A stretch of DNA of 34,917 nucleotides from Methylomonas koyamae. GTDB lineage: Bacteria; Pseudomonadota; Gammaproteobacteria; Methylococcales; Methylomonadaceae. Within the stretch, counting starts at the first letter, position 1; each line of letters begins with the position of its first letter. The position numbers and the translations under genes were made by a program. The stretch is from assembly GCF_001644025.1 (NCBI RefSeq), contig NZ_LUUK01000163.1:1-34917 (forward strand). Direction: 5' to 3'. Positions 16,298 to 23,133 of this stretch are shown here, piece after piece. A model generated the notes under the pieces. That model saw only the letters and a program-made list of their open reading frames with translations. It made no database searches and was not told where the DNA came from.

Positions 16298-16916
16298 GCT
16301 TGATTCCTTGTACCCGAATCAGACAACGCTCGGCGTCTATGCCGGGCACCGTCAGCGGTATCAGTTGAGTTTCGGCGTCGATTCCCGCCAGTTCGTCGCG
16401 CGGATTTTGGCCCTTCATCGCCAGCAGGATACCGTCTTCGGCCAGTAAATGGCCGGTCAGCGCGACGATGTCGGGCAACGAAGCGAAAGCGCGAGTCAAC
16501 ACCGCATCGAATCCGGCATCCGGCGCCCATTGTTCGACTCGCGCATGCACGACGTCGACATTGCCCAGCTTTAGTTCCAGCGCGGCCTGTCGCACGAAAC
16601 GAGTTTTCTTGGAATTGGAGTCGACCAGCGTAAAACGGCAATCCGGCCGGCAAATCGCCAGAGGAATACCCGGCAAACCGGCACCAGTACCGATGTCGGC
16701 GATTCGGGTCGGTTTCAAATGCGGCAGAATCGCCAAACTGTCGAGCAAATGCAGACTGACCATCTCCAACGGATCGCGCACGGCGGTCAGATTATAAGCC
16801 TTGTTCCACTTAACCATCAGTTGGATGAAGCGCAGCAGTGCGTCGATCTCACTGTCGCTGGTCGGCAAAGCCAAGGCTGTCAAGCCTTGCAGCAGTTTTT
16901 CCCGGCAAGCATCCAT
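16290..16916 (-). CDS. rsmG: 16S rRNA (guanine-N7-)-methyltransferase RsmG
   Basis: RsmG (GidB) uses S-adenosylmethionine to methylate G527 in the 530 loop of 16S rRNA; loss gives low-level streptomycin resistance in known bacteria. The protein shows the family opening KWNKAYNLTAVRDPLEMVS, with HLLDSLA directly after, the SAM-binding loop ADIGTGAGLPGIPLAI near 70-85, and DSNSKKTRFV plus LTRAFASLPD further on. Length 208 aa matches E. coli (207). Its ATG shares one base with the mnmG stop (TGATG) and its 3' end overlaps parA, so it sits inside a coupled operon. Confidence 0.97.
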   Translation of the reverse strand: MDACREKLLQGLTALALPTSDSEIDALLRFIQLMVKWNKAYNLTAVRDPLEMVSLHLLDSLAILPHLKPTRIADIGTGAGLPGIPLAICRPDCRFTLVDSNSKKTRFVRQAALELKLGNVDVVHARVEQWAPDAGFDAVLTRAFASLPDIVALTGHLLAEDGILLAMKGQNPRDELAGIDAETQLIPLTVPGIDAERCLIRVQGIKHG

Positions 16917-18793
16917 CAGGCGCTTTTCTTTTTAAGATGCACCAATAACAGCGAAATTGCCGCCGGGGTGATGCCGGGAATCCGCGACGCCTGGCCCAGG
17001 GTTTCCGGCCTTTGTTTTTTCAGCTTCTCGCTGACTTCGTTGGACAGTCCAGATACCAGACTGTAATCGACGTTTTCCGGTAGCTTCAAATGCTCGTAGC
17101 GCTGAGTTCGGTTGATCTCGGTTTGTTGGCGGTCGATGTAGCCGGCGTATTTGGCCTGGATCGCCACTTGCTCGGCGACTTGTTCGTCGATGTCGCCTTC
17201 GTCGCTGAAATGCTGCAATAAATTGTCGACGTCCACTTCCGGCCGGCGCAGCATCTCCATCAGACTCGCTTCCTTCAACAGCTTTTTGCCCCACAACTCT
17301 TCGGCCAACGCCGCTTCGTCGGATTCGGTGCGTATCCATTTTTTAGCCAGTTTGCCTTGCAGATTGGCGATGGCTTCGCGCTTTTCCTCGAAGCGGCGCC
17401 AGCGTTCGTCGTCGACCAAACCCAATTCTCGGCCTTGTTCGGTCAGGCGCAAATCGGCATTGTCCTCGCGCAACTGCAAGCGGTATTCGGCGCGGCTGGT
17501 GAACATCCGGTAGGGTTCGGCGGTGCCGCGAGTGATCAAATCGTCGATCATCACGCCGATGTAGGCTTCCTCGCGGCCGGGGCACCAACTTTCCAAGCCT
17601 TTCACCAATCTTGCCGCGTTCAAGCCGGCGATCAAGCCTTGGGCCGCGGCTTCTTCGTAGCCGGTAGTGCCGTTGATCTGGCCTGCGAAGAACAGCGCAT
17701 TCATATGCTTGGTTTCCAGCGAGGTTTTCAAATCGCGCGGGTCGAAGAAATCGTATTCGATCGCGTAGCCGGGCCTGACGATTTCGGCGTTTTCGAAACC
17801 CAGCATGGTCCTGATAAACCGATACTGAATGTCGAACGGCAGGCTGGTGGAGATGCCGTTGGGATAGACCTCGTTGGTGGTCAGACCTTCCGGTTCGACG
17901 AAAATTTGATGCGAATCGCGCTCGGCAAAGCGCACCACCTTATCTTCTATCGACGGGCAATAACGCGGGCCGACGCCTTCGATGATGCCGGAATACATCG
18001 GCGATCTATCTAGGCCGGAGCGGATGATGTCGTGGGTTTGCTGGTTGGTGCGGGTGATATGACAGCAGATTTGCCTTGGATGCTGTTCGCGGCTGCCCAT
18101 GAACGAAAATACCGGCAGCGGCGTGTCGCCGTGCTGCTCTTGCAATTTGCCGTAGTCGATGGTCCGGCCGTCGATCCGGGCCGGCGTACCGGTTTTCAAG
18201 CGACCGATGCGAAACGGGAGTTCGCGCAGGCGCTGTGCCAAATCGGTCGAAGCCGCATCGCCGGCACGGCCGCCACTATAATTTTCCAGTCCGATGTGGA
18301 TGCGGCCGGCCAGAAAGGTACCGGCGGTCAACACCACGGCTTTGGCGGTAAATTCCAAGCCCATCTGGGTTTTAACGCCGGTCACCCGGTCGCCCTGCAC
18401 GATCAAATCCGAAACCGTTTGTTGAAACAGCGCCAAATTCGGCTGATTTTCCAACGCGGAACGCACCGCCTGTTTATACAGCATCCGATCCGCCTGCGCG
18501 CGGGTCGCGCGCACCGCCGGACCCTTGCTGGCGTTCAGAATACGAAACTGGATGCCGCCTTTATCGATGGCTTTGGCCATGATGCCGCCAAGCGCATCGA
18601 CCTCTTTCACCAAATGGCCCTTGCCGATGCCGCCGATGGCTGGATTGCAGCTCATTTGCCCCAAGGTTTCGATGTTTTGGGTCAACAGCAGGGTTTGCGC
18701 GCCGGTGCGAGCCGCCGCCAGCGCCGCCTCGGTGCCGGCATGGCCGCCGCCGACCACGATCACATCAAAGTCTTTCTGGAATTTCACAGGCAA
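16916..18793 (-). CDS. mnmG: tRNA uridine-5-carboxymethylaminomethyl modification enzyme MnmG
   Basis: MnmG (GidA) works with MnmE to install the cmnm5 group on U34 of several tRNAs, using FAD and a methylene-tetrahydrofolate donor. The FAD-binding [17 protein letters not shown] is at residues 15-31. Other family signatures are [48 protein letters not shown] and the C-terminal helical domain that contacts MnmE. Length 625 aa against 629 in E. coli. The start is unusual: the best upstream start is TTG at 18793, with GTG two codons later at 18787; no ATG is available and the ribosome binding site is weak. It heads the cluster mnmG-rsmG-parA-parB. Confidence 0.97.
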
Positions 18794-18810
18794 TTCACGC
18801 TCGAATAGGG

Positions 18811-18832
18811 TTAAAATAACACGCTATTTTAA
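18811..18832. repeat. AT-rich palindrome between mnmG and arfA
   Basis: A perfect 8-bp inverted repeat, TTAAAATA and TATTTTAA, with a 6-nt centre lies in the only non-coding DNA between the divergent mnmG and arfA genes. It may be an operator or contain overlapping -10 elements for both directions. No known regulator site was recognised. Confidence 0.45.
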
Positions 18833-18852
18833 TGGCTTACGGAGAAAAAAGC

Positions 18853-19101
18853 ATGAAAAAACAAAAGCAGGGCAAGGGTTTGCATGAACCGCCCACCCAT
18901 AACCCGGTCGCGAAATTCGCCCACCGTTACAACAAACACCAAATTTTCGCCGATAAACGCGCCTACCAACGCAAAGGCAAACACCGCGGGCAGGAGCCCT
19001 TTGCCATCGTTTCGGCCGAGCCGATGGCAAAGGGCTTAGCCGAACTAAGCCAGCGTGTTCCGACCCGCCTCGGGCCGGTCGGTTCCGCCAGACTACGCTA
19101 A
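18853..19101 (+). CDS. arfA: Alternative ribosome-rescue factor ArfA
   Basis: ArfA frees ribosomes stalled on mRNAs without stop codons by recruiting release factor RF2; it is the back-up to tmRNA. The start is the ATG at 18853 with GGAG eight bases upstream; a longer frame from 18832 has no ribosome binding site. The 82-aa protein shows the family pattern: HNPVAKFAHRYNKHQIF, then DKRAYQRKGKHRGQEPF, equivalent to the basic RKGKHG region of E. coli ArfA that enters the mRNA channel. From codon 48 the gene holds a perfect 15-bp hairpin. In E. coli such a hairpin is cut by RNase III, so active ArfA is made from truncated mRNA only when tmRNA fails. The final 25 residues would then be dispensable. 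The family call rests on motif match and the hairpin. Confidence 0.82.
   Translation: MKKQKQGKGLHEPPTHNPVAKFAHRYNKHQIFADKRAYQRKGKHRGQEPFAIVSAEPMAKGLAELSQRVPTRLGPVGSARLR
18995..19036 (+). promoter_or_regulatory. Intragenic arfA hairpin (predicted RNase III cleavage site)
   Basis: AGCCCTTTGCCATCG (18995-19009) pairs perfectly over 15 bases with CGATGGCAAAGGGCT (19022-19036), leaving a 12-nt loop. It lies wholly inside arfA, just after the codons for the conserved core. No T-run follows, so cleavage rather than termination is the likelier route to a non-stop mRNA. A second hairpin, GGCTTAG (19033-19039) with CTAAGCC (19045-19051), shares bases with its right arm and could compete. Confidence 0.8.
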
Positions 19102-19159
19102 CCGCCCATCGAGACGATTCCGGCCGCCCCCTGGCCGTACTTTGAGGATTTCCCACGCA

Positions 19160-19768
19160 GTGAAAGCAAGCATAGAAGACAAAGTTCAAACCCGAATTCC
19201 CACCAAACACGGCGAATTCATCCTGCACTACTACAGCAACAGTCTGGACGACAAGGAACACGTCGCCTTCGTCAAGGGCGAGGTCGCCGGCAAGGACGAG
19301 GTACCGGTACGCATACACTCCGAATGCTTCACCGGCGACGTATTGGGTTCGCGGCGTTGCGACTGCGGCGCTCAACTGGACATGGCGCTGGGCTTGATCG
19401 AGCAGGCCGGCTGCGGCGTGTTGATTTACCTGCGCCAGGAAGGCCGTGGCATCGGCCTGCTGAAAAAGCTGCAAGCTTACAATTTGCAGGATCAGGGGCT
19501 GGACACCGTCGATGCTAATATCAAACTGGGACATCTGGCCGACGAGCGGCAATACGACATCGCCGCGCTGATTCTCAGCGCCTTACAGGTACGCTCGATC
19601 AATTTGATCACCAACAATCCGCAAAAAATCGACGAACTGACCAAACTGGGCGTAAAGGTTCACGACCGGATCGCCATCGAAACCCGGGTTCACGACGACA
19701 ACGTCGATTATCTGAAAACCAAGGCTGAACGCATGCGCCACATGCTGAACATGCCCGACAGCGAATAA
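19160..19768 (+). CDS. ribA: GTP cyclohydrolase II
   Basis: RibA opens the ring of GTP to give the pyrimidine precursor of riboflavin, with release of formate and pyrophosphate. I start it at GTG 19160 (VKASIEDKVQTRIPT) with GAGGA 11 bases upstream; the open frame extends further back into arfA but is not conserved-looking. The zinc ligands are Cys56, Cys67 and Cys69 (SECFTGDVLGSRRCDCGAQL), matching E. coli Cys54/65/67. The GTP-binding and catalytic segment LRQEGRGIGLLKKLQAY and the C-terminal TNNPQKIDEL are intact. At 202 aa it is a stand-alone RibA, not a RibBA fusion. It lies 58 bases after arfA and four bases before the Lon-like protease gene. No FMN riboswitch precedes it. Confidence 0.96.
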   Translation: MKASIEDKVQTRIPTKHGEFILHYYSNSLDDKEHVAFVKGEVAGKDEVPVRIHSECFTGDVLGSRRCDCGAQLDMALGLIEQAGCGVLIYLRQEGRGIGLLKKLQAYNLQDQGLDTVDANIKLGHLADERQYDIAALILSALQVRSINLITNNPQKIDELTKLGVKVHDRIAIETRVHDDNVDYLKTKAERMRHMLNMPDSE

Positions 19769-23082: not shown

Positions 23083-23133
23083 GTAAAAAAGACGGGGGCC
23101 GGTTGGCGGTGAACTATTTCACCGCCAACCGGC
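23083..23133 (-). terminator. Strong hairpin terminator downstream of the metalloprotease gene
   Basis: GCCGGTTGGCGGTGAA (23098-23113) and TTCACCGCCAACCGGC (23118-23133) form a perfect 16-bp stem with a 4-nt loop. On the minus strand it is followed, after about seven bases, by TTTTTT. It lies about 115 bp after the stop of the matrixin gene and before the promoter region of the next minus-strand gene, so it probably separates the two units. Confidence 0.68.

Follow-up and report, generated by a model that had tools for sequence, protein, structure and literature searches.

A conserved in-frame RNA hairpin in a DUF7230 gene of Methylomonas koyamae, a putative non-stop-controlled ribosome-rescue factor outside the ArfA family

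The described systems closest to the gene treated here are the ribosome-rescue factors ArfA, BrfA and ArfT. According to the portions of the literature drawn on here, the arfA mRNA of E. coli is cut by RNase III in a stem, and transcription also terminates just past this stem (PMC3989581). The E. coli protein binds Trp319 of RF2 through a hydrophobic N-terminal patch (Leu19, Leu24 and Phe25), its basic region sits in the empty mRNA channel, and it is active if cut at Asn47 and inactive if cut after Met40 (PMC5378476). A Lys-His contact of BrfA with U534 of the 16S rRNA appears to be common to ArfA, and the same source states the need for finding rescue factors that are missed by sequence similarity (PMC6881298). 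ArfT, according to a later survey, is more widespread (PMC6514570).

The window, meaning the whole 34.9-kb stretch of DNA that was analysed, contains a short ORF that a preliminary description had taken for an arfA gene with an in-frame hairpin. We file it as a member of DUF7230 that would work like ArfA while standing outside the ArfA family. DUF7230 carries no assigned function, and both the non-stop hairpin and the rescue role put forward below would be new proposals for it.

A DUF7230 protein with an ArfA-like basic segment

The ORF (bp 18853–19101, plus strand; 82 codons and a stop) translates to 82 aa, and its product had rightly been described as a small basic protein. A Shine-Dalgarno-like GGAG (bp 18841–18844, plus strand), recognized from the sequence, lies 8 nt 5′ of the ATG; in many relatives the same stretch translates in frame as ..YGEKSM... 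In hmmscan, DUF7230 (PF23876) was the only Pfam match of the protein at E ≤ 1 (E 1.3e-18; 67.3 bits against a curated cut-off of 27), spanning residues 14–53 (bp 18892–19011, plus strand). The closest database protein, 96% identical, comes from Methylomonas sp. MED-D and is named as a member of DUF7230, and 1,095 database proteins matched at E ≤ 0.001 in the DUF7230 protein search, of which the best 120 were taken; the spread of the family was surveyed in 61 genomes of the same order and 370 of the class. A locus search made with the one protein as query gave 1 locus. An NCBIfam scan of the protein at E ≤ 1 gave no match, and neither the protein nor the A1 profile matched a solved structure. 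The predicted structure was of low confidence (mean pLDDT 61.8, pTM 0.15) and uninformative. DUF7230 or PF23876 was not named in any literature searched, and the literature search found no paper combining ArfA and ArfB with Methylococc-.

The assignment to arfA by family was not borne out, as PF03889 was absent at E ≤ 1 both from the Pfam scan of the protein and from a profile search of the whole genome (5.4 Mb, 99.9% complete). None of the 61 relatives, the genome studied included, gave a PF03889 match at E ≤ 0.01. By the standard model the gene is therefore not a member of the ArfA family, and plain membership is ruled out. The looser claim that the protein matches the ArfA pattern stood where Y-x-R-K-x-K-H is found, in the C-terminal portion of the core, and failed for the remainder. 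Comparison by hhalign aligned the DUF7230 and ArfA profiles locally over K-x-x-Y-x-R-K-x-K-H-x-G-x-E-P-F, 16–17 columns, with E 4–6e-5 for a single pair and a probability of 65–69%; the score of 23.1 was not matched by any of 150 ArfA profiles with shuffled columns and fell to 12.9 when the profile was reversed. In the protein this match includes Y-Q-R-K-G-K-H at codons 38–44 (bp 18964–18984, plus strand), which is common to the mRNA-channel part of ArfA, so that the basic channel segment of ArfA is present. Global alignment of the two families reached a probability of 1.5%. The resemblance could reflect either remote descent or convergence, the latter being admitted because the similarity is confined to 16–17 columns and the global probability is so low.

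The N-terminal half is another matter. Its pattern N-P-V-A-K..F-N-K-A..F-x-D-K, strongly conserved in DUF7230, is unlike ArfA and gave no confident alignment to it by hhalign, and a clear equivalent of the RF2-binding patch of ArfA was not found in DUF7230. It would be a guess that the conserved F residues of DUF7230 play the part of this hydrophobic patch. The KGKGS motif was absent from the protein, which reads DKRAYQRKGKH, and from the DUF7230 sequences compared.

Three class-level matches were noticed during the survey. L042 and L044 are weak DUF7230 matches (26.7 and 26.5 bits, just below the cut-off of 27) that carry RTPRF in the N-terminal part, as does the ArfA of L047, and might be seen as intermediates between the families; a scan to E ≤ 10 gave them no PF03889 match, so that as bridge sequences they do not establish a common origin. 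L039, a DUF7230 match, has the N-terminus N-x-V-A-K-H..N-K-A..D-R-x-K and neither a K-H tail nor a hairpin, and the DUF7230 family may accordingly include more than one function.

The in-frame hairpin and its conservation

An RNA hairpin and predicted RNase III site (bp 18994–19037, plus strand), identified by its fold, conserved position and covariation, begins at the first base of codon 48. Its core is a perfect 15-bp stem (bp 18995–19009 paired with bp 19022–19036, loop of 12), to which an outer G-U and three inner pairs are added, giving 19 pairs with 1 mismatch. The perfect 15-bp hairpin from codon 48 noted in the preliminary description was thus confirmed, and the length of its stem is well beyond what chance would produce: in a set of 20 first-order Markov windows, perfect stems reached 12 bp at most, and perfect stems of at least 15 bp (loop 3–20) occur in two places in the window, of which the hairpin is one. 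The RNA fold has a free energy of -34.1 kcal/mol (z -6.0), equalled by none of 200 dinucleotide shuffles. Synonymous recoding of the window's own peptide gave a less extreme result, 6 of 500 recodings folding as stably, and the decisive evidence against chance is the comparison of relatives.

A search of the 5.4-Mb genome for the exact arm-gap-arm pattern (12-base arms, no mismatch, diverged copies being invisible to it) gave a single occurrence, and a dispersed repeat was ruled out by this one exact copy. No intrinsic terminator was found at bp 18600–19300 in a scan limited to loops of 3–8, and the sequence contains no T-run after the stem. Elsewhere in the window, a second strong hairpin was located at bp 23098–23133, with a perfect 16-bp stem and a 4-base loop.

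For the comparison, 51 DUF7230 loci were used (L021 was dropped as a copy of L001, and the hairpin sequence is the same in some loci). A helix of at least 15 pairs was present in 45 of the 51, and in 42 of the 51 the hairpin, valued as the best of 7 offsets, was the most stable of 49–93 local windows. Among same-order loci, our own included, 39 of 40 had 18–30 pairs, with up to 2 mismatches, beginning 0–10 nt after the K-H codon; the exception is L058, from the same genus, whose hairpin is imperfect (-45.4 kcal/mol, z -4.0). Alignment of 32 stretches revealed compensatory changes on both sides in 18 of 24 pairs, with 89.2% of the alignment cells pairing; the observed covariation was reached by none of 500 shuffles and by no slid register, and pairing dropped to 35–51% when the registers were slid. 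In alignment columns 10–28, G-U outnumbered A-C by 48 to 8, indicating that the coding-strand RNA, that is, the message, is the folding strand under selection. Synonymous recoding of 15 hand-chosen loci gave 0–7 equally stable sequences per 500 in 14 of them and 18 per 500 in L059.

Seven loci have their stop codon within the hairpin (L012, L013, L017, L032, L035, L036 and L055), although in L012 it reaches the hairpin only at the last base of the latter. In L013, L017 and L055, the 3′ arm is largely or wholly non-coding and the pairing is still kept, which indicates that this arm is retained for RNA pairing and not for protein. The hairpin is thus a conserved RNA element at a fixed place after the core. 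Behind it, the DUF7230 tails vary between relatives, and the C-terminal codons and stop of our ORF (bp 19038–19101, plus strand) are predicted to be absent from most messages. Two loci, L029 and L034, have a U-tract behind the stem, which gives it a terminator-like appearance. Cleavage by RNase III and termination are both known routes to a non-stop message, E. coli arfA using the two of them (PMC3989581) and brfA an in-frame terminator (PMC6881298).

Outside the family of the window's host, class-level matches behaved differently. Ten were inspected (L035–L044), and an in-frame hairpin was seen only in L035, L036 and L040. No in-frame hairpin was found in L037, L038, L039, L041 and L043, that of L042 lies only past its stop, and L044 has no simple long hairpin. 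These hairpin-less members indicate that the circuit is not common to every DUF7230 protein.

Taken over the sequences compared, a non-stop architecture of the DUF7230 message is well supported as a prediction. An in-frame hairpin or terminator just past the essential core, the feature of ArfA-type regulation, is present. The suggestion that the same circuit as that of ArfA operates here, with a hairpin in frame leading to a truncated non-stop message that tmRNA controls, is accordingly strongly supported as a prediction by the relatives, and was set aside as regards the ArfA family label.

The ends of the full-length proteins deserve a separate remark. Of the 35 distinct ORFs in the genus group (L020, L022, L026, L031 and others), 13 end in [LIF]AA, which resembles the end of the host tmRNA tag (...SVAIAA); such tripeptides were met with 4 times in 910 inside the tails. 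The window's own protein does not end in this way, and among the 120 database proteins an end of a hydrophobic residue plus AA was rarer (3/120). The [LIF]AA end may be a built-in degron for the read-through product.

Co-occurrence with other rescue genes and alternative readings

The genome carries a tmRNA (207 bits; tag ANDENYSVAIAA) and an RNase III gene. Its RF-1-domain genes are two, encoding 363 and 366 aa, the size of RF1 and RF2; no RF-1-domain match of the size of ArfB (GGQ release-factor domain, about 140 aa) was found in the genome, nor any match to NF006718 at E ≤ 1e-15. Of the 61 relatives, our genome included, 40 had DUF7230, none had ArfA and 11 had a third, ArfB-like RF-1 match (GGQ is present in the four of these that were fetched, and the one that was scanned matched NF006718). 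ArfB was thus found in 1 of 40 DUF7230-positive vs 10 of 21 DUF7230-negative relatives (Fisher p 3.5e-5, shared ancestry being ignored), and G057 was the only one of the 61 with both. Five near-complete genomes of one other genus in the same order (G041, G047, G052, G055 and G058) had no ArfA, ArfB or DUF7230; they may either rely on trans-translation alone or possess yet another factor.

In the draw of 370 class genomes, DUF7230 was found in 13 (11 over the cut-off), ArfA in 7 and ArfB in 194, and no genome had both ArfA and DUF7230. Of the 13 DUF7230 genomes, 2 (G292 and G368) had ArfB, vs 192 of the 357 genomes without DUF7230 (p 0.009, ancestry ignored); ArfB was present in 1 of the 11 over the cut-off and in none of the 10 clearly over it, the last group differing from the other 360 genomes with p 0.0005 (ancestry again ignored). 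ArfA and ArfB were found together in 4 of the 7 ArfA genomes, so that two backups per genome are not unusual. The complementary occurrence of ArfB and DUF7230 supports a rescue role.

This bears on the alternative that survives best, namely that the message is non-stop and the protein controlled by tmRNA, yet the protein is no release-type factor and acts, for instance, as a plug of the ribosome channel or as a factor for hibernation or stress that is induced once trans-translation reaches saturation. Such a role would agree with the protein resembling ArfA in the channel-binding tail alone, its conserved N-terminal half being unlike ArfA. On the other hand, occurrence complementary to ArfB fits an interchangeable rescue function, and a non-stop design under tmRNA control has been described, in the parts of the sources concerned, for the rescue factors ArfA and BrfA (PMC6881298, PMC8012679). 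We consider this alternative unlikely and prefer a rescue factor.

In Methylomonas, the gene lies between a divergent mnmG and a co-directional ribA. In the window, these neighbours are ORFs at bp 16916–18793 (minus strand), the product of which we take to be MnmG from its sequence, and at bp 19160–19768 (plus strand, likely GTG start at 19160), presumably encoding a RibA-like GTP cyclohydrolase II. By tblastn, MnmG was matched in all genus loci save two short ones (L007 and L056) and also in L033, L034 and L057, and the RibA match starts 0–76 nt 3′ of the DUF7230 stop in the genus loci. RNase III sites are frequent processing points of polycistronic messages, and with ribA so close the hairpin might serve processing or attenuation of that gene, the small ORF being incidental or a leader. 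This reading is very improbable in our judgement: outside the genus, ten loci keep the hairpin with no RibA match in the fetched stretch (L029, L033, L034, L035, L036, L053, L055, L057, L060 and L061), which argues against a role for ribA only; the distance of the hairpin is fixed relative to the protein core and not to ribA; and no Rfam family reached its gathering score in the window, so that a known riboswitch or RNA family is ruled out. Two of the ribA-less loci, L029 and L034, are those with a U-tract, but there are other such loci without one, and it may be, as a suggestion only, that a co-transcribed downstream gene sets whether a lineage relies on a hairpin cut by RNase III or on a genuine terminator. 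Finally, an origin of the inverted repeat as a DNA element (repeat, uptake sequence or operator) or as a product of codon constraint, to which the constrained peptide around the hairpin and the 6 of 500 own-locus recodings lend something, is strongly disfavoured by the single exact genome copy, the compensated differences in stem sequence between species, the excess of G-U over A-C and the retention of the 3′ arm even where it is non-coding.

Proposed mechanism and comparison with known rescue systems

In our opinion, the DUF7230 gene probably works like arfA, as a non-stop-controlled backup ribosome-rescue factor that does not belong to the ArfA family. The mRNA would form the hairpin in frame just past the codons of the ribosome-binding core, and RNase III would cleave it to leave a message with no stop codon; in L029 and L034, a terminator at the site of the hairpin would end the transcript instead. 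Ribosomes are predicted to stall at the end of the message, where tmRNA would normally mark the unfinished chain for degradation. Once trans-translation can no longer keep up, a shortened protein of about 48–56 residues would be set free; its basic Y-x-R-K-x-K-H tail would enter the mRNA channel left empty in stalled ribosomes, and the protein would recruit a release factor. The cleavage and tagging steps, product length, binding in the channel, recruitment of the release factor and the identity of the latter are all inferred here, and the rescue activity of DUF7230 is likewise a prediction made from sequence comparison.

Whether the proposal may be extended to the family seems to us evenly balanced: DUF7230 would then be a further release-factor-dependent rescue family with a release-factor-binding half unlike that of ArfA, would take the place of ArfB across much of the order of methanotrophs, and would have acquired the same hairpin switch for a non-stop message either convergently or from a remote common ancestor. 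If true, an unannotated protein family would gain a function, and the backup of trans-translation in bacteria lacking both ArfA and ArfB would be explained. It would also suggest a route to factors invisible to similarity searches, namely to look for conserved hairpins in short ORFs directly after a basic K-H segment.

Among known systems, ArfA (YhdL, PF03889) of E. coli and other beta- and gamma-proteobacteria is likewise small and basic, with a C-terminal Y-x-R-K-x-K-H and, as in DUF7230, a poorly conserved tail. With the same stem search applied to 110-nt stretches, a helix of at least 15 pairs after the K-H segment was found in 20 of 36 ArfA loci and none in the other 16, and the stop is sometimes inside the hairpin there too (e.g. 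L047, L083 and L090). In the ArfA of L083 and L088, the next residues, G-K-E-[PS]-Y, are also common to DUF7230. ArfA differs by having KGKGS and by its RF2-binding N-terminal half, which cannot be confidently aligned to DUF7230.

ArfT of Francisella, as described in PMC6299226, resembles the protein studied here in being short, in having a basic tail and in occurring in a host with neither ArfA nor ArfB; it differs in its KKGGSTNKK-type tail and in having neither an in-frame terminator nor an RNase III site. The window's protein has no KGG-type tail motif of ArfT, and it has the hairpin. BrfA (YqkK) of Bacillus, compared by description only, differs in being reported mainly from Bacillus and in having two N-terminal helices; nevertheless, it is a backup factor made from a non-stop message by means of an in-frame terminator, as we suggest for L029 and L034, and its Lys-His pair in the channel may be likened to the K-H of DUF7230 (PMC6881298, in the portions dealing with these points).
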